Shown: positions 2,281-23,650 of the stretch, in pieces
Numbering within the stretch: position 1 is the first letter of the stretch
Layout: each line of letters begins with the position of its first letter
NCBI GenBank assembly: GCA_963575745.1
Contig: CAUYUJ010015516.1
Location: 237,645 to 301,644, forward strand
Reading direction: 5' to 3'
Length of the DNA: 64,000 bases
From: Prorocentrum cordatum
Taxonomy: Eukaryota; Sar; Dinophyceae; Prorocentrales; Prorocentraceae
Position numbers and translations under genes: made by a program
The notes under the pieces: generated by a model
What the model was told of the DNA's origin: nothing
What the model saw: only the letters and a program-made list of their open reading frames with translations
Database searches by the model: none

Positions 2281-2340
<60 letters not shown>

Positions 2341-2379: not shown

Positions 2380-2418
<39 letters not shown>

Positions 2419-3226: not shown

Positions 3227-3257
<31 letters not shown>

Positions 3258-3265
3258 CAACAAAA
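2205..3265. repeat. Compound microsatellite block
   Basis: In order: ATC repeats (2,208-2,230), CT repeats (2,236-2,322), TA repeats (2,319-2,341), a second CT block (2,343-2,402) and TA block (2,400-2,418), GA and A tracts (2,435-2,495), cryptic TCC repeats (about 2,655-3,120) and GA repeats (3,193-3,262). No gene can be supported inside. Confidence 0.9.
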
Positions 3266-3613
3266 GGGATAACCAACTCATACCCTGCACTCCGCGTGCT
3301 CCCCGAGCGCACACGAAAACGGTGGCACCTGTGCGCTGGCGTAAGACCCAAAACTGCTAGACATCGCAGGAGCGAGGGAGGAGCCCTGACGTATCGCGCG
3401 AACGGAACGACGATCCAGGGCTCCCAAAACCGTGCAGTGACGGGACCGCGTGGCCTCAGTCCCCGACACGACCTCACCTCGCGCGGCCCGTCACTGCACG
3501 GCCTTGGGTTCTCCTGGACGCCCCAGGTCACCCGAGCTCAGAGAACGACCCGAGCCCGAGAAGCGGCGCGCGGTGACCCCCGGAACCCCTCGCGATGTGA
3601 ACAAATCACGACG

Positions 3614-3648
<35 letters not shown>

Positions 3649-3850
3649 AAAAAAAATGTTTGGCATCCTCTGGCCCTCGCCGGGCCTCGGGACCGTCAAA
3701 CAACGACTCGGGATGAAATTCCGGTCCCGGGGAAGGGGTCGAGGCCCCTGGGGGTCGACGCTGCGAGAAAATCACAGCGTCGGGGGGCCTGGGCCCGGAT
3801 TCATCTCCACGGACTCGTCATGCGATGTGGTCGCCACACCGCGTGGGGGC
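3266..3850. other. Spacer with an inverted repeat and a T/A tract
   Basis: Mostly unique sequence. An inverted repeat pairs 3,430-3,452 with 3,479-3,501 (GTGCAGTGACGGG against CCCGTCACTGCAC). A tract of about 29 T followed by about 10 A lies at 3,616-3,655. No coding region is recognised. Confidence 0.6.
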
Positions 3851-3852
3851 CA

Positions 3853-4047
3853 CCGAGGAGGAGGAGGAGGAGGAGGAGGAGGAGGAAGGAGGAGGAGGGA
3901 GGAAGGAGGAGGGAGGAGGAAGGAGGGAGGGGGGCGGAGGAGGAGGAGGAGGAGGAGGAGGAGGAGGAGGAGGAGGAGGAGGAGGAGGAGGAGGAGGAGA
4001 GGAGGAGGAGGAGGAGGAGGAGGAGGAGGAGGAGGAGGAGGAGGAGG
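3853..4047. repeat. (GGA)n microsatellite
   Basis: Nearly 200 bp of GGA with small interruptions. Every frame is open: poly-Glu, poly-Arg or poly-Gly on +, poly-Leu, poly-Ser or poly-Pro on minus. Confidence 0.95.
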
Positions 4048-4674: not shown

Positions 4675-4954
4675 CCCGAACCCCTAACCTCTAACCCAAA
4701 CCCTGAACCCTAATCCTTAATCCCTAACCCGAAGCCTAAACCCTAACCGTAGACCTAACCCTGACCCCAAACCCTAACACTAAGCCTGGCCCTAACCTAA
4801 GCTCTAAACCTGAACCCTTAACCCTAGCCCTCAACCCTAATCCCTAACCTCAACCCTACCCCTCACCCTAAACCCTAAACCCTAACCCTAACCCTAAACC
4901 CTAACCTCAACCCCAACCCTGACCCTAAACCCTAAACCCTAGCCATAAACCCTA

Positions 4955-4987
<33 letters not shown>

Positions 4988-5267
4988 ACCCTAACCCCCA
5001 AAACCCTACACCCTAAACCCTGACCCTAAACCCTAACCCTAACCCTAACCCCATACACCCTAATTCTTAACCCTAACCCTAACCCTAAACTCTAGCCCTA
5101 ACCCTAACCCTAAACCTTAACCGTATGCCTAAACCCTATGACCTAACCCTAAACCTTAACCCTAACCCTGAACCCTGAACCCTAAACCTTAACCCTAAAC
5201 CGAACCCGAACCCTAACCCTAAACCCTCACCCTATCCCTAAACCTTAACCCTCAACACAAACCATAC

Positions 5268-5298
<31 letters not shown>

Positions 5299-5321
5299 AC
5301 CCTAAACCCTAACCCTAAGCC

Positions 5322-5354
<33 letters not shown>

Positions 5355-5417
5355 TAACCCTAACCGTAACCCTAAACCCTAAACCCTAAACCCTAAACCC
5401 TGTTAGACCCCCCTAAA
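4675..5417. repeat. Degenerate interstitial telomere-repeat array (CCCTAAA)n
   Basis: About 740 bp of CCCTAAA mixed with CCCTAA, CCCTGA, CCTTAA and CCATA variants, all with the C-rich strand on +. TTTAGGG is the telomere repeat of plants and many algae, dinoflagellates included. The heavy degeneration, unlike the clean tracts further right, suggests an old internal array and not a live end. It finishes with the junction word CCCTGTTAGACC and the head of module A1. Confidence 0.92.
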
Positions 5418-6257
5418 CTGCAGGCGCGGACCTGGGGGCGCGCACCGCCACGCCTGTAATGATCTGCTAGTGAGAGCGAGCTGCAAGTCGAGCTCACCGC
5501 GACCATAGGCCTGCCGGCCCGAGGCTGTGCTTCGCTTGCAAAATGATAACCCCTAACCCTCCGCCGGATGCTCAGAAATGCCGCTCGGCTTTTCCCCCGG
5601 AGCTCTCCCCCAGAGCTCTCCCCCAGAGCTCTCCCCCAGAGCTCTCCCCCAGAGCGCCGATGCTCCCTGTCATTCCTGGCATGCACATCCCGCAGCGCTC
5701 ACGCGCGTCGCAGAGCCGACGTCCGCCGACCCCGCGAACAACGGCGCCCCCGCGAACTCTCGGCAAGGCGCAGTTGTGCCCTCTTCCGCGGGCTTGCACC
5801 AGGAACGCGGAAGCTCGCGGTCGAGGGGGGCTTCCGCGCGGGTGTGGCCGCCGCGCCGCGCCGAGTCCGCGAGCGAGAAAGCCCGTCGGACTCCACGCGC
5901 GGCGCGGCGCCCACTGCCGCGCGGAAACCCAGGGGGCCACGTCCAGCCTCCACGCGGCGGCCCCTGGGGAAGGCTACGCGGGCGACTCTGCACCCGCAAG
6001 GGTCGCGGTCGCGCGCGTAACCTTCGCGAAGGACGACTCTCGAATCGCGCTAATGCTGACATATCTGTTTCTGGGACGCACATCACTCACTCAGTCTGAC
6101 GCCAGCACTCCTTCCCCCCTTGATAGGGGGGAGCGTGGGAGGTAGATCCCTAAACCCTAAAAGCAATGACTCTGGGTGGAGGGGGTGGGACAGAACGCAT
6201 CCATCCATCCCCCCCTACCTCCTGAGGAGGGGGGGATAGGATGGTTCTGCGCAGAAG
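5418..6257 (+). repeat. Telomere-linked module A1
   Basis: Class A unit. Its head begins CTGCAGGCGCGGACC right after a CCCTAAA unit and carries a second telomere-like word at 5,550, 132 bp in. A short array of the 13-bp unit GAGCTCTCCCCCA follows (about 5,597-5,657), then a GC-rich body. Hairpin 1 is CCCCCC-TTGATA-GGGGGG (6,114-6,131), the internal CCCTAAACCCTAAAA is at 6,148, and hairpin 2 pairs CATCCATCCCCCC with GGGGGGATAGGATGG. The tail from the internal motif to the end is 109 bp. The same order recurs in A2 and A3. Frames through it are open on several phases and are not taken as genes. Confidence 0.85.
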
Positions 6258-6313
6258 CCCTAAACCCTAAACCCTAAACCCTAAACCCTAAACCCTAAAC
6301 CCTAAACCCTAAA
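6258..6313. repeat. Interstitial CCCTAAA tract between A1 and B1
   Basis: Eight clean CCCTAAA units. The B1 head CTGCAAGCC follows without a spacer. Confidence 0.95.
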
Positions 6314-8218
6314 CTGCAAGCCACGGGCGGTGCATCGTCAGAAGCCCGTGGCGCCTGGCCGAGCGCTCAGCGAGCCTGCCCATACGGCGTGCGCCGCACC
6401 GACGAAGCGGCGATAGCCGCTGAGGAGGAATTCGCACGCCGCGCGTTGCATCCCCGTGGTGTTCTCCTAAGAAAAGGAACCCTTAACCCTCAGCCGCAGC
6501 CTGCGGGTTCCCCACGAGTCGCTACATCCCCTGAGGCTCCAAACCTATGAAAATACAGCATGCGGTGCTCTCTGGGTGCTCCAAACGTATGAAATTACAG
6601 CATGCGGCGCTCCAAGCGCTTCCAAACGCTCCAGGCGCTCCCAAGGACTCTCCAAGCGCTCTCGGCACGCTCCCAGGCGCTCCCAAGCGTTCCCAGGCGC
6701 TCCCAGCGCTCCCAGGCGCTCCCAGGCGCTCCCAAGCGCCCCCAGGCGCTCCCATGCGCTTCCAAGCTTCCCCAGGCGCTCCCGGCACGCTCCCAAGCGC
6801 TCTACGGCGCTTCCGGCGCTCCCGGCACGCTCCCAGGCGCTCTCGGCACGCTCCCAGGCGCTCCCAGGCGCTCTCAGGCGCTCCCGAGCGCTCCCAAGCG
6901 CTCCTGGGCGCTCCCGGCACGCTCCCAGGCGCGTTCCCAGGCGCGCGCTGGCTGCGCTCGGCGCTCCCAGGAGCTCCCGGCACGCCCCCAAGCGCTCCCA
7001 GGCGCTCGCAGGCGCTCCCAAGCGCTCCCGGCACGCTCCTGGCGCGCTCCCAAGCGTTCGCAGGCGCTCCCCAGCGTTCCCAGCGCTGCCACAACCCCGA
7101 AGCGCTCCTAAACGCTCCCCGGCGTTCCCAGGTGCTCCCAGGCGCCCAAGCATTCCCACGCGCTCTTAAGCACCCACAAGCGATCCAAGGCGCCACGCTG
7201 CGCTGCCATGCGCTCCCGCGCGCCCCCAAGCGTGCCCAGGCGGTTCCAGGCGATCCCAGGGCTCCTGGGGGAAGCTCCAGGCGCTCTCCCAGCGCTGCCA
7301 GAGGGCCCCCCAAGGCATTCCACGGGCTCTGCCATGGAGGTGCTGCCGCAGCCATGCGCGCGCATCGTAGCGAGGGGGTGCCAGACCCACCCCCTCGCGC
7401 TCCCCCTCCAGCCGTCCGAAGCTCGCGCCGAGGGCGGCTGCGTCGATGATTGCAATCGCTTCAGCGGGGAGGCGACCCCAAAGGCGAAACCCAAAGCCGC
7501 GAGCGAATGCAACTGCCGTGCGCGTCGCCGTCAGCGAGGAGCCCGACGGCGCAGCCGCTCGCTCGAGGCCCGCGGGAAACCATGGGTTTGCCGCGCCAGC
7601 GCCTTCGCAGTGCTGCTTTCCAATGCCGAAAGGGAATGCCGGACCCCTGTGGAACTGCTGCGCCAGCGGCAGCCCGCCGGCGAAGCTCCACGCCGAAGGT
7701 GCAAACAGCTGCCTCATCGACGAGGCGACCTGACGCGCCAGCGCCATGCACCCTGCGCGCGTGCTCGCGTCGGCGCGCATTGCTGCGGCCGCGGCCGCGC
7801 GCGCGCATCCCAGCATTCACAGCCCAGTGTCACAACCCAGTGCCGAAGGCAAAGGCGGCAACGCATGGACATGCTGCGCCAGCGGCAGCCCAACGGCGAA
7901 GCTCAACGCCGAAATCGCCAAAGGCTGCCTCTTCGACGGGGCGACGCGCCGACGCGCCTACGTCACGCGCCCTGCGCGCATGCTTAAGTGGATGCGCAGT
8001 GCCACGGCTGCGTCGGCGATCGCCTGCGCGCGCCACTTCGACAGCCCCCCGTGATAGGGGGGTTGGGGGGAGAAACCCTAAACCCTAAAAGGCTTCACTC
8101 TGGGTGGTCTGGGGCGGGAATGCGACGAACCGTGGCGCGCGCGGCCTGGGCAGCGACCCCCCCCAACAACCTTGATGTGGGGGGGATCGCAGCCAGCGCG
8201 CGCTCGCGCCAATGCAGG
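6314..8218 (+). repeat. Telomere-linked module B1
   Basis: Class B unit. The head starts CTGCAAGCCACGGGCG, with a second telomere-like word CCCTTAACCCT at 6,480 (166 bp in) and two copies of a ~40-bp phrase containing TATGAAAATACAGCATGC. The 10-bp array CCCAGGCGCT runs about 6,614-7,265. A GC-rich body follows (7,330-8,040) with two diverged ~220-bp direct repeats built on CAGCGGCAGCCC. Hairpin 1, CCCCCC-GTGATA-GGGGGG, is near 8,046 and the internal CCCTAAACCCTAAAA at 8,076. Hairpin 2 pairs CCCCCCCAACAAC with a G tract. The tail is 142 bp. Three phases are open through the body, so coding is doubtful. Confidence 0.85.
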
Positions 8219-8292
8219 CCCCAAACCCCAAACCCCAAACCCCAAACCCCAAACCCCAAACCCTAAACCCTAAACCCTAAACCCTAAACCCT
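8219..8292. repeat. Telomeric tract with CCCCAAA variants
   Basis: Five to six CCCCAAA units followed by four to five CCCTAAA units. The variant block is homogeneous and confined to one side of the tract. Confidence 0.95.
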
Positions 8293-8804
8293 CAAGACGA
8301 AAAACACCACGTATTGAGCAAGCTCGAATGGTGCCATTGCGAAAGACAGTGAAACGATACCATGCCGAACGATGTAAGCGAGCCCGGCGCAAGCTTGCGC
8401 GAGCGCCTGATGGGCGCGCCAACCATGCCCGACGCTCCGAGCGAGCCGGCGCGAGCGGAAGCGGCTCCGGAACAGCGCGCCGGCACGCTCCCAGGCGCTC
8501 GCAGGCGCTCCCGGCGCGCTCCCAGGCGCCCCCAGGCGGTCTCGAAGCTCCCGAGCGCCCAGAAGCGCTCCCAGGCAGGGGTTCCCAGGCGCTCCTAAAC
8601 GCGTCCGGCACGCTCCCAAGCGTTCCCAAGCGCTCCCAGGCGCTCCCGAGCGCTCCCGGCACGCTCCCGGGCGCTCCCAGGCGCTCCCGGCACGCTCCCG
8701 GCACGCTCCCGGCACGCTCCCAGGCGCTCCCAGGCGCTCCCGGGCGCTCCCGGCACGCTCCCAAGCGTTCCCAAGCGCTCCCGGCACGCTCCCGGCACTG
8801 GCAG

Positions 8805-8835
<31 letters not shown>

Positions 8836-8980
8836 TGCTCCCAGGTGGTCCAGGCGCTCCCAGGGAGACATCCGCCGCGCGGGAGGCGATCTTCGAGCGG
8901 GCACGCACGGAAGCGCTCTCGGCGATAGCGCAGACCAATTGATACCGCCGCGAGGTCCGCAGACGCTAATACGTTGTGTA
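8293..8980 (+). repeat. Telomere-linked module C
   Basis: A single unit whose edges differ from classes A, B and D. A non-repetitive head (8,293-8,480) is followed by an array of the same CCCAGGCGCT decamer (about 8,482-8,862) and a short tail ending GTTGTGTA. It lacks the internal CCCTAAACCCTAAAA and the hairpin pair, so it may be a truncated or different class. Confidence 0.7.
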
Positions 8981-9045
8981 AACCCTAAACCCTGTTAGAC
9001 CCTAAACCCTAAACCCTAAACCCCTAAACCCTGTTAGACCCTAAA
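8981..9045. repeat. Telomeric tract with two CCCTGTTAGACC junction words
   Basis: CCCTAAA units interrupted twice by CCCTGTTAGACC, near 8,990 and 9,031. The second lies directly before the A2 head. Confidence 0.93.
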
Positions 9046-10869
9046 CTGCAGGCGCGGGCCTGGGGGCGCGCACCGCCACGCCTGTAAGGATCTGCTAGTG
9101 AGAGCGAGCTGCAAGTCGAGCTCACCGCGACCATAGGCCTGCCAGCCCGAGGCGGTGCTTCGCTTGCAAAATGATAACCCCTAACCCTCCTCCGGATGCT
9201 CAGAAATACAGCTCGGCTCTCCCCCGGAGCTCTCCCCCAGAGCTCCCCCCCAGAGCTCCCCCCCAGAGCTCTCCCCCAGAGCTCTCCCCCAGAGCTCTCC
9301 CCCAGAGCTCTCCCCCAGAGCTCCCCCCCAGGGCTCCCCCCCAGAGCTCCCCCCCAGGGCTCTCCCCCAGAGCTCTCCCCCAGAGCTCCCCCCCAGAGCT
9401 CTCCCCCAGAGCTCTCCCCCAGAGCTCTCCCCCAGAGCGCTCCCCCAGAGCTCTCCCCCAGAGCTCTCCCCCAGAGCTCTCCCCCAGAGCTCTCCCCCAG
9501 AGCTCTCCCCCAGAGCTCTCCCCCAGAGCTCTCCCCCCCAGAAAGTTCTCCCCCAGAGCTTCGCCCCAAGAGCTCCCCTCCAGAAGCTCTCCCCCAGAGC
9601 TCCCCCCCAGAGCTCTCCCCCAGAGCTCTCCCCCAGAGCTCCCCCCCAGAGCTCTCCCCCAGAGCTCTCTCCCAGAGCTCCCCCCCAGAGCTCTCCCCCA
9701 GAGCTCTCCCCAGAGCTCTCCCCCAGAGCTTCCCCCCAGAGCTCTCCTCCAGAGCTCTCCCCCAGAGCTCTCCCCCAGAGCTCTCCCCCAGAGCTCCCCC
9801 CCAGAGCTCCCCCCCAGAGCTCCCCCCCAGAGCTCTCCCCAGAGCTCTCCCCCAGGGCTCTCTCCCAGAGCTCTCCTCCAGAGCTCCCCCCCAGAGCTCT
9901 CCCCCAGAGCTCTCCCCAGAGCTCTCCCTCCAAGCTCCCCCCCCGAGCTCTCTCCACAAGAGCTCTCCCCATATGCTCTCCCCCGAGCTCTCCCCCAGAG
10001 CTTACCCCCCCCCCCCACGAGCTCTCCGCGAGAGGCTCCCCCCCAGACTCTCCCCCATAGCTCTCCCCCAGAGCTTCTCCCCAGAGCGCTCCGCCCATAG
10101 CTCCCCCCAGACTCTTCCCCAGCATTTGAGCTCTCCCCCGAGCTCTCCCCCAGAGTTCCTCCCAGAGCTCTCCCCCAGTACTCTCCCCCCCAAATCGCTC
10201 TCCCCAGATCTCTCCCCCAGAGCCCGATGCTCCCTGAGAAGCCTGTGCGTGCAACATCTCCCGCAGCGCTCACGCGCGTCGCAGAGCCGACGTCCGCCGA
10301 CCCCACGAACAACGTCGCCCCCGCGAACTCTCGGCAAGGCGCAGTTGTGCCCTCTTCCGCGGACTTGCACCAGGAACGCGGAAGCTCGCAGTCGAGGGGG
10401 GCTTCCGCGCGGGAGTGGCCGCCGCGCCGCGCCGAGTCCGCGAGCGAGAAAGCCCGTCGGACCCCGCGCGCGAGTCCGCGAGCGAGAAAGCCCGTCGGAC
10501 CCCGCGCGCGGCGCGGCGCCCACTGCCGAGCGGAAACCCAGGGGGCCACGTCCAGCCTCCACGCGGCGGCCCCTGGGGAAGGCTACGCGGGCGACTCTGC
10601 ACCCGCAAGGGTCGCGGTCGCGCGCGTAACTTTCGCGAAGGACGACTCTCGAATCGCGCTAATGCTGACATATCTGTTTCTGGGACGCACATCACTCACT
10701 CAGGCTGACGCCAGCACTTTACCTTCCCCCCCTTGATAGGGGGGAGCGTGGGAGGTAGATCCCTAAACCCTAAAAGCAATGACTCTGGGTGGATGGGGTG
10801 GGACAGAACGCATCCATCCATCCCCCCCTACCTCCTGAGGAGGGGGGGATAGGATGGTTCTGCGCAGAA
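9046..10869 (+). repeat. Telomere-linked module A2 (longest 13-bp array)
   Basis: Same head as A1, with the second telomere-like word at 9,178 (132 bp in). The 13-bp array GAGCTCTCCCCCA is expanded to about 1 kb (9,216-10,222). The body matches A1 and adds a ~40-bp direct duplication near 10,435-10,510. Hairpin 1 is followed by the internal motif at 10,761 and a 108-bp tail. Because 13 is not a multiple of 3, the array reads as a 13-residue Pro/Ser repeat in all + frames and as a Gly/Glu repeat on minus. Frames of 300-480 codons here are therefore shadows. Confidence 0.88.
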
Positions 10870-10877
10870 ACCCTAAA

Positions 10878-11506
10878 CTGCAAGCCACGGGCGCTGCAAC
10901 GTCCGTAGCCCGTGGCGTCTGGCCGAGCGCTCAGCGAGCCTGCCCATACAGCGTGCGCCGCACCGACGAAGCGGCGATAGCCGCTGAGGAGGAATTCGCA
11001 CGCCGCGCGGTGCATCCCCGTGGTGTTCTCCTAAGGAAAGGAACCCCTAACCCTCAGCCCTAGCTAGTGGCCCCCTGGGGGGCCGATGCTTCCTCTGGGG
11101 CTCCAAACCTATGAAAATACACCATGCGGCGCTCCCTGGGTGCTCCAAACTTATGAAATTACCGCATGCGGCGCTCCAAGCGCTTCCAAACGCTCCAGGC
11201 GCTCCCAAGGACTCTCCCAACGCTCCAGGCACGCTCCCAGGCGCTCCCAGGCGTTCCCAGGCACTCCCGGGCGCTCCCAGGCGCTCCCAGGCGCCCCCAA
11301 GCGCTCCCAGGCGCCCCCAAGCGCTGCCAAGCTTTCCCAGGCGCTCCCGGCACGCTCCATGACGCTTCAGGCGCTCCCGGCATGCTCCCAAGCGCTCTCG
11401 GCACGCTCCCACGAGCTCCGAGGCGCTCCCAGGCGCTCCCAGGCGCTCCCAAGCGCTCCTGGGCGCTCCCGGCACGCTCCCAGGCGCGTTCCCAGGCGCG
11501 CGCTGG

Positions 11507-11537
<31 letters not shown>

Positions 11538-12749
11538 AGCGCTCCCGGCACGCTCCCAGGCGCTCCCAGGCGCTCGCAGGCGCTCCCAAGCGCTCCCGGC
11601 ACGATCCTGGCGCGCTCCAAGGCGCTCGCAGGCGCTCCCCAGCGTTCCCAGCGCTGCCACAACTCCGAAGCGCTCCTAAGCGCTCCCCGGCGCTCCCAGG
11701 TGCTCCCAGGCGCCCAAGCATTCCCACGCGCTTTTAAGCACCCACAAGCGCTCCAAGGCGCCACGCGGCGCTCCCATGCGCTCCCGCGCGCTCCCAAGCG
11801 CGCCCAAGCGGTTCCAGGCGGTCCAAAGGCTATTGGGGGACAGGTGCTCCCAAGCGCCCACGTGGAAGTGCTGCCGCAGCCATGCGCGCGCATCGCAGCG
11901 AGGGGGCGCCAGACCCACCCCCTCGCGCTCCCCCCCCAGCCGTTCGAAGCTCGCGCCGAGGGCGGCTGCGTCGATGATTGCAATCGCTTCAGCGGGGGGG
12001 CGACCCCAAAGGCGAAACCCAAAGCCGCGGGCGAATGTAACTGCCGTGCGCGTCGCCGTCAGCGAGGAGCCCGACGGCGCAGCCACTCGCTCCAGGCCCA
12101 CGGGAAACCATGGGATTGTCACGCCAACGCCCTTGCAGTGCTGCTTTCCAATGCCGACGGCAAATGCCGGGCCCCTGTGGATCTGCTGCGCCAGCGGCAG
12201 CCCACCGGCGAAGCTCCACGCCGAAGGTGCAAACGGCTGCCTCATCGACGAGGCGACCTGACGCGCCAGCGCCATGCACCCTGCGCGCGTGCTCGCATCG
12301 GCGCGCATTTCCACGGCCGCGGCCGCGCGCGCGCATCCCAGCATTCACAGCCCAGTGTCACAACCCAGTGCCGAAGGCAAAAGCGGCAACGCATGAACAT
12401 GCTGCGCCAGCGGCAGCCCAACGGCGAAGCTCAACGCCGAAATCGCCAAAGGCTGCCTCTTCGACGGGGCGACGAGCCGAAGCGCCGCCTACGTCACGCG
12501 CCCTGCGCGCATGCTCAAGTGGATGCGCAGTGCCACGGCCGCGTCGGCGATCGCCTGCGCGCACCACTTCGACAGCCCCCCGTGATAGGGGGGTTGGGGG
12601 GAGAAACCCTAAACCCTAAAAGGCTTCACTCTGGGTGGTCTGGGGCGGGAGTGCGACTAACCGTGGCGCGCGCGGCTTGGGCAGCGATCCCCCCCAACAA
12701 CCTTGATGGGGGGGGGATCGCAGCCAGCGCGCGCTTTCTCTAATGCAGA
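10878..12749 (+). repeat. Telomere-linked module B2
   Basis: Closely similar to B1 throughout, and separated from A2 by one CCCTAAA unit only. Second telomere-like word at 11,044 (166 bp in), decamer array about 11,170-11,835, GC-rich body 11,870-12,580, hairpin 1 near 12,576, internal CCCTAAACCCTAAAA at 12,607, tail 142 bp. A 525-codon + frame crosses head, array and body, but equivalent frames are open in other phases. Confidence 0.87.
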
Positions 12750-12763
12750 CCCTAAACCCTAAA

Positions 12764-13036
12764 TTCCCAAGCACCTCGTTGTGCTTCTGCCCACCCCGCC
12801 GCGCATCACCGTCGCCGTCTACGAGAGACAGGGCATCTCTGAGATGCTTGAGCATGTAGCCCGAGTGGTTCGCCTTGGCAGCTTTTGCTGCTGCCCTCCC
12901 CCTCTTTTGGGGATTCGCGCTTCAATGATAAACCTCCCCTGATCCTCAACGAATATAACACCCTAAACCCAAAGACCTTTTCTTCGAAGCGCCCGGGGGC
13001 GCCTGGGGGCGCCTGGGAGCGCCTGGGAACGCTTGG

Positions 13037-13072
<36 letters not shown>

Positions 13073-13076
13073 TTGG

Positions 13077-13142
<66 letters not shown>

Positions 13143-13301
13143 TTGGGAGCGCCTGGGAGCGCCTGGGAGCGCCTGAGAGCGCTTGGGAGCGCCTGGGAGC
13201 GTGCCGGGAGCGCCTGGGAGCGCTTGGGAGCGCCAAGGAGCGCTTGGATGCGTCTGGGAGCGCCCGGGAGCGCTTGGGAACGCGCCGGGAGCGCCTGGGG
13301 A

Positions 13302-13333
<32 letters not shown>

Positions 13334-13682
13334 CTTGGGATGGCCAGGGAGCGCTTCGGAACGCGCCGGGAGCGCCTGGCAGCGCCGGGGAGTGCATGGG
13401 AGCGCTTGACTGAGAGCGCCTGGGAGCGCTTGGGAGCGCCTGGGAGCGCCAGGGAGCGCCTGGGAGCGCTTGGAACGCATTTGGGAATTTAGGGGCCAAC
13501 GGCCCTAAACCCTAAAAGGCTTTAGTTTGGGAGGTTGCCGGCCATGCGGCCGGGGGTGGGGAGATGTTGCACCTCCTGCCCCCTTCGCCAAGCTTGCTCG
13601 GGTCGGCTAACCGCCCCCCCAATCGAGCTTGCCGAAGGGGGGGCAGCATTGCCTGGACTGTCGGCCGCTGCGCTAAGAGAAG
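12764..13682 (+). repeat. Telomere-linked module D1
   Basis: Class D unit, preceded by two CCCTAAA units. The head starts TTCCCAAGCACCTCG and carries a second CCCTAAACCC word at 12,961 (197 bp in). The array about 12,990-13,480 is the decamer in the opposite orientation (GGGAGCGCCT on +). Then come a small hairpin GGGGCC-AACG-GGCCC, the internal CCCTAAACCCTAAAA at 13,503, TTTGGGAGG, and a large hairpin pairing CTTCGCCAAGCTTG with CGAGCTTGCCGAAG. The tail is 179 bp. Confidence 0.88.
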
Positions 13683-13748
13683 CCCTAAACCCTAAACCCT
13701 AAACCCTAAACCCTAAACCCTAAACCCTGTTAGACCCTAAACCCTAAA
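13683..13748. repeat. Interstitial CCCTAAA tract with CCCTGTTAGACC
   Basis: Clean CCCTAAA units with the junction word CCCTGTTAGACC near the right end, before D2. Confidence 0.95.
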
Positions 13749-14072
13749 TTCCCAGGCACCTCGTTGTGCTTCTGCCCACCCCACCGCGCATCACCGTCGC
13801 CGTCTGCGAGAGACAGGGCTTCTCTGAGATGCTTCAGCTGGTTGCCCGACTGGGTCGTCCTGGTAGCCTAGGGCTACCTAACCCCACGCTTGGGGATCTA
13901 CGATGCAAAGATAAACCATGCTTGATCTTCGAAGAGTACAACACCCTAAACCCGGGGACCTTTCGTCCTCGGGTCGGGTTCCTACTTCTCCGAGACGTAA
14001 AAACACGTGTGGGGCGCTCTAAACGCTTCTGGGCGCACTTGTGAGCGCCTGGGAGCGCCTGGGAGCGTCTGA

Positions 14073-14114
<42 letters not shown>

Positions 14115-14134
14115 ACGCCTGGGAGCGTGCGGGA

Positions 14135-14169
<35 letters not shown>

Positions 14170-14336
14170 TTGGGAGCGCCGGGGCGCACCTGAGAGCGCC
14201 GGGGAGCGCCTGGGAGCGCCGGGGAACGCCTGGGAGCGCCGGGGAGCGCCGGGGAGCGCCAGGGAGCGCCGGGTAGCGCCGGGGAGCGCCTGGGAGCGTC
14301 TAGGAGCGCCTGGGAGCGCCGGGGAGCGCCGGGGAA

Positions 14337-14369
<33 letters not shown>

Positions 14370-14601
14370 CAGGGAGCGCTTGGGAGCGCTTGGAGCCATT
14401 TGGGAATTTGGGGGCCAGCGGCCCTAAACCCTAAAAGGCTTTAGTTTGGGAGGTCTCCGGCCATGCGGCCGGGGGTGGGGGGATGTTGCAACTCCTGCTC
14501 CCTTCGCCAAGCTTGCTCGGGTCGGCTAACCGCCCCCCCAATCAAGCTTGCCGAAGGGGGGGCAGCATTGCCTGGACTGTCGGCCGCTGCGCTAAGAGAA
14601 G
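13749..14601 (+). repeat. Telomere-linked module D2
   Basis: Head as in D1 with small changes. Second CCCTAAACCC word at 13,944 (195 bp in), GGGAGCGCCT array about 14,043-14,395 with many GGGGAGCGCC variants, internal motif at 14,422, tail 179 bp. Confidence 0.88.
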
Positions 14602-14691
14602 CCCTAAACCCTAAACCCTAAACCCTAAACCCTGTTAGACCCTAAACCCTAAACCCTAAACCCTAAACCCTGTTAGACCCTAAACCCTAAA
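14602..14691. repeat. Interstitial CCCTAAA tract with two junction words
   Basis: About 90 bp of CCCTAAA with CCCTGTTAGACC near 14,630 and 14,670. Confidence 0.95.
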
Positions 14692-15016
14692 TTCCCAAGC
14701 ACCTCGTTGTGCTTCTGCCCACCCCACCGCGCATCACCGTCGCCGTCTACGAGAGACAGGGCTTCTCTGAGATGCTTCAGCTGGTTGCCCGACTGGGTCG
14801 TCCTGGTAGCCTAGGGCTACCTAACCCCACGCTTGGGGATCTACGATGCAAAGATAAACCATGCTTGATCTTCGAAGAGTACAACACCCTAAACCCGGGG
14901 ACCTTTCGTCCCCTGATGGCGCTCTACATGTCTCCGACACGTAAAAACACGTGTGGGGCGCTCTAAGCGCTTCTGAGCGCACTTGTGAGCGCCTGGGAGC
15001 GCCTGGGAGCGTCTGG

Positions 15017-15061
<45 letters not shown>

Positions 15062-15386
15062 TGCGGGAAGCGCCTGGGAGCGCTTGGGAGCGCCTGGGAG
15101 CGCCGGAGCGCACCTGGGAGCGCCGGGGAGCGCCTGGGAGCGCCGGGGAGCGCCGGGGAGCGCCGGGGAGCGCCGGGGGGCGCCGGGGAGCGCCTGAGAG
15201 CGCCTGGGAGCGCCGGGGAACGCTTGGGACGCCTGGGAGCGCTTGGGAGCTCCTCGGAGCGCGGGGGACGCTTGGGAGCGCCTGGGAGCGCCTGGGAGCG
15301 CCAGGGAGCGCCTGGGAGCGCTTGGGGGCGCCAGGGAGCGCCTGGAAGCGCTTGGGAGCGCCTGGGAGCGCTTCGGTACGCGCCGG

Positions 15387-15422
<36 letters not shown>

Positions 15423-15436
15423 CTGAGAGCGCTTGG

Positions 15437-15472
<36 letters not shown>

Positions 15473-15695
15473 TTGGGGGCGCTTGGAACGCATTTGGGAA
15501 TTTAGGGGCCAACGGCCCTAAACCCTAAAAGGCTTTAGTTTGGGAGGTTGCCGGCCATGCGGCCGGGGGTGGGAAGATGTTGCACCTCCTGCCCCCATCG
15601 CCAAGCTTGCTCGGGTCGGCTAACCGCCCCCCCAATCAAGCTTGCCGAAGGGGGGGCAGCATTGCCTGGACTGTCGGCCGCTGCGCTAAGAGAAG
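14692..15695 (+). repeat. Telomere-linked module D3
   Basis: The head is nearly identical to D2. Second CCCTAAACCC word at 14,887 (195 bp in), decamer array about 14,987-15,490, internal motif at 15,516, tail 179 bp. D1, D2 and D3 stand in direct tandem, which fits recent unequal exchange or copying. Confidence 0.88.
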
Positions 15696-15747
15696 CCCTA
15701 AACCCTAAACCCTAAATCCTAAACCCTAAACCCTGTTAGACCCTAAA
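15696..15747. repeat. Interstitial CCCTAAA tract
   Basis: About 50 bp of CCCTAAA with one CCCTAAAT variant and a CCCTGTTAGACC word directly before the B3 head. Confidence 0.95.
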
Positions 15748-16202
15748 CTGCAAGCCACGGGCGGTGCAACGTCAGTAGCCCGTGGCGCCTGGCCGAGCGA
15801 TCAGCGAGTCCGCCCATGCGCGCGCGCCGCACCGACGAAGCGGCGATAGCCGCTGAGGAGGATTCGCATCTCGCGGGTATGCATCCCCGTGGGTGTGCAT
15901 CTGAGAATAGAAAGAACCCTTAACCCAAAGCCCAGCCGTAGGCTTCGCTGCGCGCGCCTACATCCCCTGGGGCTCCAAACCGATGAAAATGCAGCATGCG
16001 GCGCTCTTTCGGCCGTCCGTGGGGCCGCAAACCATATGAAAATACAGTATGCGGCGTCCTTTCGGCTGGCGCACGTCCCAGGCGCTCCCCAGCGCTTCCA
16101 GGCGCTCCCAGGCGCTCTCAGGTGCTCCCAAGCGGTCCCAAGCGCTCCCAAGCGCTCTCCAACGTTCCCAGGCGCTCCCAGGCGCTCCCAAGCGTTCCCA
16201 AA

Positions 16203-16237
<35 letters not shown>

Positions 16238-18258
16238 CGAGGAGCTCCCAGGTGCTCCCCAGCGCTTTCGGCACGTTCCCAAGTGTTCCCAAGCGCTCCC
16301 AAGCGCATGGCGCTCCCAGGCGCTCCCAAGCGCTCCCGGCACGCTCCCAGGCGCTCCCTGGCGCGCTCCGCATGCTTCCACGCGCTCCCAAGCGCTCCCA
16401 AGCGCTCCCAGGCGCTCCCACGTACTCCCAAGCGCTCCCGGCACGCTCCCAGGCGCTCGAGCATGCTCAAGCGCTCCCTGCGCGCTCCCTGGCGCCTCCG
16501 AGCGCTCTGGGGCGCTCCCAAGCACTCCCAGGCGCTCCGGCGCGCTCCCAGGCGCTCCCGGCACGCTCCCAGCACGCTCCCCAACGCTCCCAAGCGTTCC
16601 CATGTGCTCCCAGGCGCTCCGAAGCTCCCACGGGTGCTCTCAAGCGTTCCCTGGCGCTCGCAAGTGCGTTTAAGCAGTCCGAGCGGTCCGATGGCGCTCC
16701 CAAGCGTTTGCATGCATTCGCAAGCACTCGGCAGCGCTCCCTGGCGGCGCTGCCCGGCGCTCCCCCGCCATGCAGGTGCTGCCGCAGCCATGCGCGCGCA
16801 TCGTAGCGAGGGGGTGCTAGACCCACCCCCTCGCGCTCCCTCTCCTGCCATGCGACATTCGCGCCGAAGGCGGCTGCGTCGACAATGCAATCGCTTCGGC
16901 GGGGGCGACGCCAACGGTCCTGCCCAATGGGCGACCCACGGCCCGCACTCGCGGTGCACTCTGCGTGTCCTGTCACGCTCCCAGACGCTCCCGCGTGCTT
17001 CCATCCCGGGGAAACCTCGAGGCGCTCTCTCAGCGCTCCCAGAGAGCTCTCCCAAGGCATTCCAGGGGGTCTGCCATGGACATGCTGCCGCAGCCATGCA
17101 CGCGCATCGTAGCGAGGGGGTGCCAGACCCACCCCCTCGCGCTCCTCCTTCCAGCCATGCGACATTCGCGCCGAAGGCGGCTGCGTCGACAATGCAATCG
17201 CTTCAGCGGGGGCGACGCCAACGGTCCTGCCCAATGGGCAACCCACGGCCCGCGCTCGCGGTGCACTCTGCGTGTCCTGTCGCGCTCCCAGACGCTCCCA
17301 CGTGCTTCCATCCTGGGGAAAGGTCGAGGCGCTCCCCCAGCGCTCTCAGAGAGCTCCCCCAAGGCATTCCAAGGGGTCTGCCATGGACGTGCTGCCGCAG
17401 CCATGCGCGCGCATCGTAGCGAGGGGGTGCCAGACCCACCCCCTCGCGCTCCTCCTCCCGCCTTCCGAAGCTCGCGTCGACAGCGCCTGCGTCGATGATT
17501 GCGACTTCAAAGCAAAACCCAAAGCCGCGGGCGAATACAACTGCCGCGCGCGTCGCCGTCAGCGAGCAGCCCGACGGCGCGGCTACTCGCTCGAGGCCCA
17601 CGGGGGCCCAAGGGATTGCCGCGCCAGCGCCCTCGCAGTGCTGCTTTCCAACGCCGAAGGCAAATGCGGACCCCTGTGGATGCGCTGCGCCAGCGGCAGC
17701 CGTCTACGACGGCGGCTGCAAGGGCAGCCAGGCCAACGGCAAAAGCCAATGCAGGAGGCCTACTGGAACCAGGGGCAGTGCTGCGTCTGCGACAGGCCAA
17801 CGCCGTAACTCAAAATCTCATGCGGCGACGCCTGGCCTTGAGGCCTCTCCTGTGCCTTCTGATTGCAATGAACACCCGCAGGAGAAGAATCCGTCCTTCG
17901 GCAAAGCCATGCGCCAACTGGGAGCCAGCCGAATGCAGCTAAACCCACGGCAAAGATTGTTGGCCATGCGACGACGCTGGCTCTTGCGCCTGCGCAAAGC
18001 GCTTTGCGCGCGTACCAAGAACGCGATGCCAAAACCGCGTCGTCGTGCTCCCCGCGGAATATTCGCATTCGCACACAACACGAAAGCCCCCCTTGATAGG
18101 GGGGTTGGGGGGAGAAACCCTAAACCCTAAAGGGCTTTACTGTGGGTGGTCTGGGGCGGGAGTGCAAGTTCAAAGCGCGCGCGGCTTGGGCAGCGATCCC
18201 CCCCAACAACCTTGATGCGGGGGGGATCGCAGCCAGCGCGCGCATGCGCCAATGCAGG
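15748..18258 (+). repeat. Telomere-linked module B3 (expanded body)
   Basis: B-class head with the second telomere-like word at 15,917 (169 bp in). Decamer array about 16,072-16,750. The body contains three tandem ~305-bp repeats, each opening with TGCTGCCGCAGCCATGC (about 16,778, 17,080 and 17,390), where B1 and B2 have one and B4 two. The 3-prime body (17,690-18,090) diverges from the other B copies. Internal CCCTAAACCCTAAAG at 18,118, tail 140 bp. Confidence 0.85.
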
Positions 18259-18328
18259 CCCTAAACCCTAACCCCTAAACCCTAAACCCTAAACCCTAAT
18301 CCCTAACCCCTAACCCCTAACCCCTAAA
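18259..18328. repeat. Interstitial CCCTAAA / CCCCTAA tract
   Basis: A mixed tract in which CCCTAAA gives way to CCCCTAA units toward the B4 head. Confidence 0.93.
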
Positions 18329-20546
18329 CTGCAAGCCACGGGCGGTGCATCGTCAGAAGCCCGTGGCGCCTGGCCGAGCGATCAGCGAGTCCGCCCATGC
18401 GCGCACGCCGCACCGACGAAGCGGCGATAGCCGCTGAGGAGGATTCGCATCCCGCGGGTATGCATCCCCGCGGTTGTTCTTCTGAGAATAGAAAGAACCC
18501 TTAACCTCAGCCCCAGCCAGTGAACCCGCTACGGTCGGTGCCATCCCCTGGGGCTCCAAACCTATGAAAATACAGCATGCGGCGCCCTTTCGGCCGTCCG
18601 TGGGGCCGCAAACCATATGAAAATACAGCCTGCGGCGTCCTTTCGGCTGGCGCACGTCCCAGGCGCTCCCAAGCGCTCCCAGGCGCTCCCAGGCGCTCCC
18701 AAGCGCTCCCAAGCGCTCCCAGGCGCTCCCAAGCGCTCCCAAGCGCTCCCAAGCGCTCCCAAGCGCCCCCGAGCGCTTCCAGGCGCTCCCAAGCGCTCCC
18801 AGGAGCTCCCAGGCGCTCCCAGGCGCTCCCCGGCGCTTTCGGCACGTTCCCAAGCGCTCCCAAGCGCTCCCAGGCGCATGGCGCTCCCAGGCGCTCCCAG
18901 GTGCTCCCGGCACGCTCCCAGGCGCTCCCGGCACGCTCCCTGGCGCTCCCAGCACGCTCTCAGGCGCTCCCAAGCGCTCCCAAGCGCTCCCAGGTACTCC
19001 CAAGCGATCCCGGCACGCTCCCAGGCGCTCCCAGCATGTTCAGGCGCTCCCTGCGCGCTCCCAAGCGCTCCCTGGCGCCTCCGAGTGCTCCGGGGCGCTC
19101 CCAAGCACTCCCAGGCGCTCCGGCGCGCCCCCAGGCGCTCCCGGCGCGCTCCCATCACGCTCCCAAGCGCTCCCAGGCGTTCCCGTGCGCTCCCAGGCGC
19201 TCCCAAGCTCCCACAGGTGCCCCCAAGCGCTCCCCGGCGCTCCCAAGCGCGCTTAAGCAGTCCAAGCGGTCCCATGGCGCCCCCAAGCGTTTCCATGCAT
19301 TCGCAAGCACTCGGCAGCGCTCCCTGGCGGCGTTTCCCGGCGCCCCCCCGCCATGCAGGTGCTGCCGCAGCCGTGCGCGCGCGTCGTAGCGAGGGGGTGC
19401 CAGACCCGCCCCCTCGCGCTCCTCCTCCAGCCATGCGAACTTCGCGCCGAAAGCGGCTGCGTCGACAATGCAATCACTTCAGCGGGGGCGACGCCAACGG
19501 TCAAGCCCAACAGACGACCCACGGCTCGCACTCGCGGTGCACTCTGCGTGTCCTGTCACGCTCCCAGACGCTCCCACGTGCTTCCATCCCGGGGAAAGGT
19601 CGAGGCCCTCGCCCAGCGCTCCCAGAGAGCTCTCGCAAGGCATTCCAGGGGGTCTGCCATGGGCGTGCTGCCGCAGCCATGCGCGCGCATCGTAGCGAGG
19701 GGGTGCCAGACCCACCCCCTCGCGCTCCCCCTCCCGCCTGACGAAGCTCGCGCCGAGAGCGTCTGCGTCGATGATTGCAATCGCTTCAGCGGGGGCGACC
19801 CCAAAGGCGAAACCCAAAGCCGCGGGCGAATGCAACTGCCGTGCGCGTCGCCGTCAGCGAGGAGCCCGACGGCGCAGCCACTCGCTGGAGGCGCAGGGGA
19901 ACCCGAAGGATTGCCACGCCAACGCCCTTGCAGTGCTGCTTTCCAATGCCGACGGCAAATGCCGGACCCCTGTGGATCTGCTGCGCCAGCGGCAGCCCAA
20001 CGGCGAAGCTCCACACAGAAGGCGTAAACGGCTGCCTCATCGACGAGGCGAGCTGGCGCGCCAGCGCCATGCACCCTGCGCGCGCGTTCGCGCGGGCGCG
20101 CGTGCTCCCACGGCCGCGGCCGCGCGCGCGCTTCCCAGCATTCGCAGCCCAGTGTCACAGCTCAGTGCCGACAGCAAAAGCGACAACACATGGACATGCT
20201 TCACCAGCGGCAGCCCAACGGCGAAGCTAATCGCCGCCATCGCCAACGGCTGCCTCTTCGACGGGACAACGAGCCGAAGCGCCGCCTACGCCGCGCGCCC
20301 TGCGCGCGTGCTCACGTGGATGCGCAGCGCCACGGCCGCGTCGGCGATCGCCTGCGCGCGCCACTTCGACAACCCCCCGTGATAGGGGGGTTGGGGGGAG
20401 AAACCCTAAACCCTAAAAGGCTTCACTCTGGGTGGTCTGGGGCGGGAGTGCGACTAACCGTGGCGCGCGCGGCTTGGGCAGCGACCCCCCCCGACAACCT
20501 TGATGCGGGGGGGATCGCAGCCAGCGCGCGCTTGCGCCAATGCAGG
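18329..20546 (+). repeat. Telomere-linked module B4
   Basis: B-class head with the second telomere-like word at 18,498 (169 bp in). Decamer array about 18,657-19,262, two ~305-bp body repeats (about 19,353 and 19,662), hairpin 1 near 20,376, internal motif at 20,404, tail 142 bp. Confidence 0.86.
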
Positions 20547-20609
20547 CCCTAAACCCTAAACCCTAAACCCTAAGCCCTAAACCCTAAACCCTAAACTCTA
20601 AACCCTAAA
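20547..20609. repeat. Interstitial CCCTAAA tract
   Basis: About nine CCCTAAA units with minor variants (CCCTAAG, ACTCTAAA), followed by the A3 head. Confidence 0.95.
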
Positions 20610-21762
20610 CTGCAGGCGCGGACCTGGGGGCGCGCACCGCCACGCCTGTAAGGATCTGCTAGTGAGAGCGAGCTGCAAGTCGAGCTCGCCGCGACCATAG
20701 GCCTGCCGGCCCGAGGCGGTGCTTCGCTTGCAAAATGATAACCCCTAACCCTCGGCCGGATGCTCGGAGATACCGCTCGGCTTTTCGCCCAGAGCTCTCC
20801 AGAGCTCCCCCCCAGAGCTCCCCCAGAGCTCCCCCCAGGGCTTCCCCCCAGAGCTCTCCCCCAGAGCTCTCCCCCAGAGCTCTCCCCCAGAGCTCTCCCC
20901 CAGAGCTCTCCCCCAGAGCTCCCTCCCAGAGCTCTCCCCCAGAGCTCTCCCCCAGAGCTCTCCCCCAGAGCTCTCCCCCCTCTCCCCCAGAGCTCTCCCC
21001 AGAGCTCTCCCCAGAGCTCTCCCCCAGAGCTCTCCCCCAGAGCTCTCCCCCAGAGCTCTCCCCCAGAGCTCTCCCCCAGAGCTCTCCCCCAGAGCTCTTC
21101 TCCCCCAGAGCTCTCCCCCAGAGCTCTCCCCCAGAGCTCTCCCCCAGAGCTCTCCCCAGAGCTCTCCCCCAGAGCTCTCCCCCAGAGCTCTCCCCCAGAG
21201 CTCTCCCCCAGAGCTCTCCCCCAGAGCTCTCCCCAAGAGCTCTCCCCCAGAGCTCTCTCCCAGAGCTCTCCCCCAGAGCTCTCCTCTCCCAGAGCTCTCC
21301 CCCAGAGCTCTCCCCCAGAGCTCTCCCCCAGAGCTCTCCCCCAGAGCTCCCCCCCAGAGCGCTCCCCCAGAGCTCTCCCCCAGAGCTCTCCACCAGAGCT
21401 CCCCCCCAGAGCTCTCCCCAGAGCATCCGCGGAGCCCGGCGCGGCGTCCAGCCTCCACGCGGCGGCCCCTGGGGAAGGCTACGCGGGCGACTCTGCACCC
21501 GCAAGGGTCGGGGTCGCGCGCGTAACTTTCGCGAAGGACGACTCTCGAATCGCGCTAATGCTGACATATCTGTTTCTGGGACGCACATCACTCACTCAGG
21601 CTGACGCCAGCACTCCTTCCCCCCTTGATAGGGGGGAGCGTGGGGGGTAGATCCCTAAACCCTAAAATCAATGACTCTGGGTGGATGGGGTGGGACAGAA
21701 CGCATCCATCCATCCCCCCCTACCTCCTGAGGAGGGGGGGATAGGATGGTTCTGCGCAGAAG
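20610..21762 (+). repeat. Telomere-linked module A3 (internally deleted body)
   Basis: A-class head with the second telomere-like word at 20,742 (132 bp in). The 13-bp array runs about 20,785-21,425. Most of the GC-rich body present in A1 and A2 is missing, and the array passes almost directly into the CCACGCGGCGGCCCC part. Hairpin 1 precedes the internal motif at 21,653, and the tail is 109 bp. Confidence 0.87.
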
Positions 21763-21818
21763 CCCTAAACCCTAAACCCTAAACCCTAAACCCTTTACCC
21801 TAAACCCTAAACCCTAAA
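21763..21818. repeat. Interstitial CCCTAAA tract
   Basis: Eight units, one of them CCCTTTA. Confidence 0.95.
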
Positions 21819-22164
21819 TTCCCAAGCACCTCGTTGTGCTTCTGCCCACCCCACCGCGCATCACCGTCGCCGTCTACGAGAGACAGGGCATCTCTGAGAT
21901 ACTTCAGCAGGTAGCCAGAGTGGGTCGCCCATGCAGCCGTAGGCTGCCCCTTGGGAATCGCGAGTCAAAGATAAACTTTCCCTTGATCCTCGAAGAGTAT
22001 AACACCCTAAACCCGGGGACCTTTCGTCCTCGGGTCGCGCTCTACATGTCTCCGAGACGTAAAAACACGTGGGGGGCGCTCTAAGCGCTTCTGGGCGCAC
22101 TTGGGAGCGCTTGGGAGCGTCTGGGAGCGCCTGGGGCCCCCTGGGAGCGCCTGGAAGCGCTTGG

Positions 22165-22210
<46 letters not shown>

Positions 22211-22730
22211 CGGGAAGCGCCTGGGAGCGCTGGGGAGCGCCGGGGCGCACCTGAGAGCGCTGGGAAGCGCCTGGGAGCGCTGGGGAGCGCCGAGGAGCGC
22301 CGGGGAGCGCTTGGGAGCGCCGGGGAGCGCCGGGGAGCGCCGGGGAGCGCCGGGGAGCGCCTGGGAGCGCTTGGGAGCGCCTGGGAGCGCCTGGGAGCGC
22401 TTGGGAGCGCCTGGGAGCGCTTGGGAGCGCTTGGGAGCGCCAGGGAGCGCCGAGCGCCGGGGAGCGCTTGGGAGCGCCTGGGAGCGCTTGGGAGCGCCAG
22501 GGAGCGCCTGGGAGCGCTTGGAGCCATGTGAAAATTTAGGGGCCAGCGGCCCTAAACCCTAAAAGGCTTTAGTTTGGGAGGTCGCCGGCCATGCGGCCGG
22601 GGGTGGGAAGATGTTGCAACTCCTGCTCCCTTCGCCAAGCTTGCTCGGGTCGGCTAACCGCCCCCCCAATCAAGCTTGCCGAAGGGGGGGCAGCATTGCC
22701 TGGACTGTCGGCCGCTGCGCGCCCGAGAAG
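21819..22730 (+). repeat. Telomere-linked module D4
   Basis: D-class head, diverged in the middle, with the second CCCTAAACCC word at 22,005 (186 bp in). Decamer array (GGGAGCGCCT) about 22,085-22,525, internal motif at 22,550, tail 180 bp including a CGCGCCCGAG variant at the end. Confidence 0.87.
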
Positions 22731-22806
22731 CCCTAAACCCTAAACCCTAAACCCTAAACCCTAAGCCCTAACCCCTAACCCCTAACCCTAACCCTAAACC
22801 CTAAAC
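22731..22806. repeat. Last interstitial telomeric tract
   Basis: CCCTAAA units, then CCCCTAA units, then CCCTAA. This is the inner edge of the mosaic. No telomeric array is seen further right. Confidence 0.94.
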
Positions 22807-22972
22807 CTCGCTCGCCTCGCGCGCAGACTGTAGGACGCAGGGGACGTCGGCGGCGGAACTCTGAAAGTTTTGTGGGTGTGCGGGCGGGCCCGCCCGCACA
22901 CCCGCAAAGCTTTCAGAGTCCCGCCCCCGACGGCCCCTACGTCCAACAGTCCGCGCGCTCGGCTCGCTCGCC
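22807..22972. mobile_element. Large imperfect palindrome at mosaic edge
   Basis: Two ~80-bp arms fold on the centre GCGGGCGGGCCCGCCCGC near 22,892. Pairs include ACTCTGAAAG with CTTTCAGAGT and CGCGCAGACTGT with ACAGTCCGCGCG. Size and shape fit a foldback/MITE-type element. No transposase is seen. Confidence 0.7.
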
Positions 22973-22980
22973 CCGGACCC

Positions 22981-23165
22981 CTCCGGAAAGGGGGGGAGGG
23001 GGGTGGAGGGGTTCCGACCCCCCCCCCCTTTCAAAGGGGGGGGGGGGGGGTTCGACCCCCCCCCCCCTTAAAGGGGGGGAGGGGGGGGGGGGTTCTCGGA
23101 CCCCCCCCCCCCTGAAGGGGGGGAGGGGGGGGGGGGTCCCTGGAGCCCCCCCCCCTTTTGTATTC
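22981..23165. repeat. Alternating C and G tracts
   Basis: Four successive C-tract/G-tract pairs of 9-15 bases, each able to form a hairpin or quadruplex, in ~50-bp units with TTC(T)CGGACC between. Tract lengths are probably unreliable in the assembly. Confidence 0.85.
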
Positions 23166-23650
23166 AAGGTGATCCACTGGCGCTCTTTCCCCAGGAGGCC
23201 CCCAAGAGGCCTCCGAATGGCCCCATATGGTCGCCATCCCGTCCCCGATGCTCACCCGCATTCCCCGTCACTCCCGGCGCTCCCTCCCTCCCTGACCCCT
23301 CCTCCGCCACCTCCTCCTCCTCCTCCTCGTCTCCCGTTCCCCTCCCTTCCCTCTGTATTGTCCCCTGCCCCCTTCCCTCACTGTCTCCCTCACTGACTCC
23401 CTCGCTGACTCCATCCTTCCGTCGCTCCTTTCCCTTCCCTCCCGCAATTATCTCCCGCTTTCCCTCCCCGCAATTATCTCTCCGCTAGGATGCGCTAAGG
23501 CCCCCACGTTCCGTCGCCGCCGCCAGCCAGGCGAGGGACAAGGTGGATCGTGGAGCCATCCTCCAGGAAACAGTGGCGAAGCAGCGAACCAGGACAGAAA
23601 AGCGCATTGCAATACATGTGGACACTGGCCGACAGCGAGGGAGAGAGGGA
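23166..23650. other. Pyrimidine-rich spacer, no gene seen
   Basis: CCT/CTCC-rich sequence with short repeats such as TCCCTCACTGACTCCCTC. No coding region is supported. Confidence 0.4.

Follow-up and report, generated by a model that had tools for sequence, protein, structure and literature searches.

The window analysed here is a stretch of 64,000 nucleotides from the dinoflagellate Prorocentrum cordatum (contig CAUYUJ010015516.1, C14667:237645-301644), whose genome assembly comprises 4.128 Gb in 21,875 contigs. It holds an array of modules embedded in telomeric repeats, and these modules are very probably copies of a Helitron-like (RepHel) transposon family living in dinoflagellate telomeric DNA. 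The GC content of the window is 0.53-0.69 (2-kb steps) and its telomere repeat is TTTAGGG; a GC content of 59.7% for P. cordatum and TTTAGGG telomeres for dinoflagellates have been reported (PMC11453091). The array comprises twelve units on the + strand, each set between CCCTAAA tracts. Class A modules occupy positions 5418..6257 (a non-coding element), 9046..10870 and 20610..21762. Class B modules lie at 6314..8218, 10878..12749 (set apart from the second class A module, A2, by one CCCTAAA), 15748..18258 and 18329..20546. The four class D modules are at 12764..13682, 13749..14601, 14692..15695 and 21819..22730, and a single class C unit is at 8289..8982. A constant tail is present in 11 of the 12 units (A 3, B 4, D 4); in the module mapping of the window no tail of the common type was found in the class C unit. 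The twelve-module mosaic described by an earlier, sequence-only reading of this DNA is thus confirmed in its units and classes, and its fixed tails are restricted to A, B and D.

Both ends of the modules have a fixed plan. A telomere-like word stands in the head at an offset of 130 bp in all three A modules, 185-196 bp in all four D modules and 164-167 bp in three of the four B modules (B4 was unmatched by the word pattern used). The tails run, from 5' to 3', through a C/G hairpin, the internal telomere motif CCCTAAACCCTAAA(A), a G-rich box and a large hairpin to the end. In the first class A tail the two-unit motif lies at 6148..6162 on the + strand, followed by the G-rich box and the 3' hairpin; further + strand motifs start at 8076, 10761, 12607, 13503, 14422, 15516, 18118, 20404, 21653 and 22550. 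The distance from CCCTAAACCCTAAA to the module end is 110 bp in A, 141-143 bp in B and 180-181 bp in D. The constancy of both distances had been proposed before and holds, the tail values being displaced by 1-2 as a matter of definition. The motif consists of exactly two telomere units in 51 of 56 tails, and in 28 of 32 in loci that were not selected by the motif.

A hairpin shortly before the 3' end, as in Helitrons, is found in the predicted folds of several classes. The predicted 3' hairpins have 19 pairs in A, 25 in B, 24 in E and 13-16 in F, with stems that differ between classes, and the stem base lies 13, 15, 24 and 12 nt from the end, respectively (one fold per class). That of A2 (10814..10857, + strand), with 19 predicted pairs and its base 13 nt short of the module end, may by analogy be terminator-like. 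The classes had been regarded as unrelated in sequence, which needs qualifying on two counts. One order of features (hairpin, telomere motif, G-rich box, hairpin) is common to the tails of A, B, E, F, G and N; the hairpin tip has the word TTGAT in B, E and N, a less exact form of it in G and neither in D or F. In addition, the arrays of B, C and D are built on the same 10-mer, which is inverted in D. Read by eye, D and a coding unit on contig C2 also have a small hairpin inside the G-rich box.

The tails recur throughout the genome. The tail-core pattern CCCTAAACCCTAAAAGN{6,14}TGGGWGG gives 855 matches (399+456), many of them clustered, and its reversed form gives 0+0 in the 4.13-Gb genome; such a search had been recommended on the basis of the window. 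Position relative to contig ends was examined for 83 of 100 places listed, in 24 of 29 contigs. Among these listed matches, the units lie nearer the contig end faced by the telomere strand in 18 of 24 contigs (7 of 10 among those longer than 400 kb); six of the 24 run contrary to this bias, and two contigs have units in both directions.

Heads and tails were counted at loci placed on the genome, with duplicates removed and minus-strand matches left out. Dropped before counting were 16 A-tail matches on B tails, 6 C-tail array matches, 26 internal repeats of classes H and I, and 2 matches at locus edges. Of 77 head matches, 67 are full and preceded by telomere sequence, 7 are full without it (4 of these being class K sequence inside other units) and 3 are truncated. 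Of 88 tail matches, 81 are full and followed by telomere sequence, 4 are full without it and 3 are truncated. The idea that the constant flanks look like recognition ends is supported, and copies elsewhere retain them. TAAA directly precedes 51 of 59 heads (A, B, D, E, H) and CCCT directly follows 74 of 79 tails, and the tracts between modules are whole heptads in 43 of 57 cases, with a range of 0 to 27 units. Three tails join a head without any telomere repeat (B to B in locus L039, C to C and H to I in L010), which would fit circles or read-through. Partial heads abut telomere repeats for D in L009, probably for E in L010, and for B, minus 10 nt, in L013.

Other telomere-separated units were seen at four loci (L019, L020, L025 and L027; classes H, I and K). 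They have AT-rich heads and G-rich boxes in the tail and are without the two-unit motif. A mosaic of a class K middle joined to a class A tail was found in L012 (5246-5492 of the reversed locus), and a similar join occurs in L079.

The coding capacity of the family lies outside the window. A tblastn search with homologues identified RepHel regions on four contigs (C2, C268, C166 and C262) and gave no RepHel match in the window itself. The most complete example is a 13,873-bp unit at C268:96607-110479, bounded by four CCCTAAA on the head side and six on the tail side. It consists of a B head (94%), a RepHel gene and a B tail (85%). The open frame has 1,903 codons without a stop, lies on the strand opposite to the head-to-tail direction and contains the motifs PHLH, YVSKYVAK, GKPGTGKT (Walker A) and YTALSRV along with three Cys-rich repeats. 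Besides these repeats, the encoded protein has a two-tyrosine HUH nuclease and a helicase of Pif1/RecD-like type, and the fusion of such a nuclease to a superfamily 1B helicase characterizes Helitron RepHel proteins. A second telomere-bounded unit, of class F and approximately 13.8 kb, carries RepHel between head and tail on C166; over 621 bases, the head of this unit matches that of a short F copy at 94%. On C262, seen on the head side only, the helicase lies 1,305 bp from a B head, compared with 1,341 bp in C268. The end of contig C2 has a unit with RepHel and a tail of the common plan, the left part lying beyond the contig end; two reading frames there have Rep-like and helicase-like motifs, and the helicase matches the Pfam family AAA_30 at 3e-17.

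Homologues of the transposase are present in Polarella, Symbiodinium and Effrenium, one Polarella entry being named Helitron helicase-like; a scan of IMG/VR with the homologue found nothing. The structure model of a homologue has as its best PDB match 7lcc, the Helitron transposase on its left end (E 3e-23), a match in fold. The two B helicases, compared over 251 codons without a stop, are 78% identical in amino acids, with a pN of 0.142 and a pS of 0.735, and show purifying selection. The DNA around RepHel is 73-77% identical between C268 and C262, and the F and B RepHel proteins are 26-43% identical in amino acids by piece.

These coding units identify the origin of the B modules in the window. 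Three segments of the C268 unit align with the first B module: positions 1-626 at 76%, 13047-13628 at 91% and 13625-13873 at 87% identity. B2, B3 and B4 also align to both ends of the unit, and the middle is missing from all four. The four modules are therefore internal-deletion derivatives of the coding unit, and non-autonomous copies with both ends of a coding copy, as in Helitrons, are found both here and in class F, where a short copy shares the F head. The suggestion that the flanks serve telomere addition or end protection is not supported; the B and F ends belong to RepHel-coding elements of 13.8-13.9 kb. Classes A and B have a short part of the tail core in common, and D shares array sequence with B and F. 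From their tail plan, A and D would probably be moved in trans by RepHel relatives. On the most likely reading, the B modules are non-autonomous Helitron-like elements with AAA^CCC as their target, and the A and D modules probably are as well.

The comparison with known systems supports this placement and also sets the family apart. In known Helitrons, a tyrosine of the transposase serves to nick the left end, the DNA is unwound by the helicase, a hairpin near the 3' end brings about termination and circles form (PMC4778049). The terminator hairpin of Helraiser lies 11 nt from the end; its loop is required, whereas the stem can be swapped (PMC4778049). Like members of the Helitron superfamily such as Helraiser/Helibat, the elements described here combine a two-tyrosine HUH nuclease with a Pif1-like helicase, and the model of a homologue matches 7lcc in fold. 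Many of their copies are short, non-coding and bounded by the same ends as a coding copy, a large hairpin stands close to the 3' end and some tails join heads directly. Unlike Helitrons, the modules are without TC/CTRR ends, use the telomeric target AAA^CCC instead of A^T and hold a two-unit telomere motif and a G-rich box in the tail; the gene is antisense in two classes and some copies contain a candidate hepatitis delta virus (HDV)-like ribozyme.

The claim that no described element has this plan proved too strong. In the nematode Oscheius tipulae, Helitron-like genes with a Pif1-like helicase are associated with telomeres as they are here. They are confined to telomeric extensions bar one match, are present at 11 of 12 ends and are termed perhaps a distinct family; the available portion of that account describes no arrayed short derivatives, fixed repeat register or telomere motif in the ends (PMC8022731). 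A literature phrase search for telomeric or subtelomeric Helitrons gave this paper alone. No paper on dinoflagellate telomeric Helitrons came up among the titles and abstract openings searched, a range that excluded most subscription papers and bioRxiv. The MoTeR and FoTeR elements have the same telomere-separated layout, with head-to-tail units, telomere repeats between them and tandem arrays inside, and coding and non-coding MoTeR units share both ends as our units do (PMC7367193, PMC12857005). However, these accounts describe a reverse transcriptase, target-primed insertion and 5' truncation, in place of the RepHel and mostly intact ends found here (PMC7367193, PMC12857005).

Each element runs from a 5' head through a free middle, in many cases a minisatellite array, to a 3' tail, and the coding copies measure approximately 13.8-13.9 kb. 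Their movement could be explained as follows. The transposase would nick the single-stranded C-rich telomere strand at AAA^CCC, and this insertion site would account for the fixed phase in the repeat. Rolling-circle transfer would join the elements in one orientation, and the 3' hairpin would end the transfer. Telomerase and unequal exchange would then lengthen or shorten the tracts between units. No target duplication is visible, and a duplication of whole heptads would be hidden in the tandem repeats. The boldest part of the proposal concerns the telomere-like words of both head and tail, which may serve as binding sites imitating the target. In its full form, which we consider possible and put forward tentatively, the family would be a telomere specialist in which the Cys-rich repeats bind the words in both ends as well as the telomere target, so that ends mimicking the target fix register and orientation.

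Several observations weigh against the Helitron-like reading. The ends typical of canonical Helitron1 elements (5'-TC and CTRR-3') are absent, the heads starting with CTGCA, TTCCC, CTCGA and others and the tails ending in AGAAG, GCAGG, GAGAAG and others, and insertion is at AAA^CCC and not at A^T. The elements are therefore called Helitron-like and not canonical Helitrons. The predicted hairpin base is 41 nt from the end in D and within 3-4 nt of it in B3, the coding B copy and G, and the predicted fold is extended or branched in these last three and in N. Significant 5' stem-loops are missing from the heads of 8 of 10 classes; with z below -2 in just the other two, the head stem-loop was dropped as a universal 5' feature. 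The internal motif is merely two to three times less variable than the remainder of the tail (variable cells in B 6/322 versus 261/4669, in D 4/210 versus 150/3255, in A 0/126 versus 30/1494), a contrast that is partly built in because many loci were chosen by the motif, and its description as hyper-conserved was abandoned. The link of RepHel to the ends comes from four loci, two of them complete. Among the loci examined, a coding copy sharing the ends was found for class B of the window and for none of A, C and D. The F gene is split over several frames, the C2 gene is in two frames in which the two-tyrosine stretch was not seen, and RepHel runs opposite to head-to-tail in B and F and along it at C2. 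The Rep-part homologues match Helitron_like_N at up to 5.9e-05, below the curated Pfam cut-off, and a Rep-part protein profile found no PDB chain by sequence up to E 1.

The strongest alternative is that recombination between CCCTAAA tracts alone copies and shuffles the units, with RepHel as a passenger. The Y' elements of yeast are likewise subtelomeric units divided by telomere tracts, and they spread by recombination without an HUH transposase, unlike the units here. The identical tract sequence between units offers homology, 29 different class neighbour pairs occur among the 57 tracts, many tail-core matches are clustered and the right flank of the array recurs in part on other contigs. 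Such a process could conceivably have produced the arrays by itself, and we hold this to be distinctly less likely than transposition. It leaves unexplained the common end plan across classes of different sequence, the direct tail-to-head joins and the presence of RepHel, under purifying selection, inside two classes with matching ends. Recombination of this kind probably acts alongside Helitron-like transposition.

The possibility that a Helitron became nested by chance in a B-like satellite unit gains something from there being two complete copies only and from the differing orientation of RepHel at C2. It is nevertheless improbable. The distance from B head to RepHel is near-equal on two contigs that are just 73-77% alike in DNA, and a second class, F, has its own divergent RepHel in the same orientation. 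The tail could also be read as a telomerase-RNA-like domain, with a hairpin, a two-unit template CCCTAAACCCTAAAA and a structured 3' part. The strict two-unit length, the hairpins on both sides and the ribozyme candidates upstream in A and at C2 are compatible with this. However, no Rfam telomerase RNA matched at the thresholds tried, the motif is just modestly less variable than its surroundings, both units in D can pair with flanking sequence (by eye) and hairpins are expected of Helitron ends anyway. Because the coding copies carry RepHel, this idea and that of a target-primed retroelement lost ground, and the telomerase-RNA reading is now very unlikely. A telomere-targeted retroelement of the MoTeR/SART type, inserting by target-primed reverse transcription, shares the layout of telomere-separated head-to-tail units with variable arrays (PMC7367193, PMC12857005) and might account for the few partial heads at telomere repeats, but it is hardly tenable given RepHel in the coding units found, the absence of a reverse transcriptase from the four frames that were scanned with Pfam, and truncated heads in just 3 of 77 matches, one of them at a telomere repeat (wholly lost heads being outside this count).

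Two of the three class A modules in the window have a candidate HDV-like ribozyme directly upstream of the tail, at 5932..6035 in A1 and 10541-10644 in A2 (+ strand). The Rfam CPEB3-type model matches them at E 0.015 and 0.011 over 17.8 kb and at 0.00016 for 191 bases alone, in each case below the gathering score. A third candidate lies between transposase gene and tail of the C2 unit (L017 reverse strand, approximately 3637-3740 of the reversed locus), where class A is 73-77% identical to the C2 unit around the candidate; the Rfam search did not report it. A strict descriptor (nested double-pseudoknot, P1-P4, catalytic C in J4/2) gave 8 matches in 508 kb on both strands, namely A1, A2, the C2 unit and 5 others, against 4 in the reversed control sequence. 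The first P1 strand is absent in A3 and L056. R2 elements have an HDV-like ribozyme at the 5' end (PMC3414825), whereas the candidates here lie inside the unit.

The array is bordered on the left by degenerate telomeric repeats (4682..5417, + strand) of mixed 6-7-base units, which also occur on contig C370 (L055) and look like older telomere on the distal side of the array. Further left, positions 582-4047 are dense in microsatellites (CCT, CA/CG, GAG, AG) and include a 100-base N gap at 1401-1500. On the right, a telomeric tract (22731..22807, + strand) is followed at 22806-23400 by a long near-perfect inverted repeat with alternating C/G blocks. Because this flank recurs in part at C149 and C262, which fits the expectation for a subtelomere, it looks like a shared subtelomeric border. 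Three tRNAs called by ARAGORN at 22996-23159 fall in a C/G homopolymer block and were taken as false, and ten flanking ORFs (open reading frames) of the window matched no Pfam family at 0.001. In the tracts at 8983-9045, 13683-13748, 14602-14691 and 15696-15747, CCCTGTTAGA stands in place of CCCTAAA; because class H telomere units elsewhere end in the same 10 letters, these tracts may be relics of class H units. Since it lies approximately 242-260 kb inside a 1.04-Mb contig, the array is either interstitial or the contig join is wrong.

The telomere-dwelling mobile elements with defined insertion known to us are mostly retroelements, and the telomere repeat is an unusual niche for a Helitron-like transposon. 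A rolling-circle-type DNA transposon tied to a single position in the telomere repeat would demonstrate that strict target choice can evolve in Helitrons, and the coding copies together with hundreds of short copies are a natural set of ends for learning how the target is chosen. Read as Helitron-like, the family also accounts for many of the satellites that form a large subtelomeric class in a genome of dinoflagellate type. If the family is indeed a telomere specialist, repeated insertion and telomerase extension would build kilobases of chromosome end, and the elements would be a DNA-transposon counterpart of the telomeric retrotransposons.

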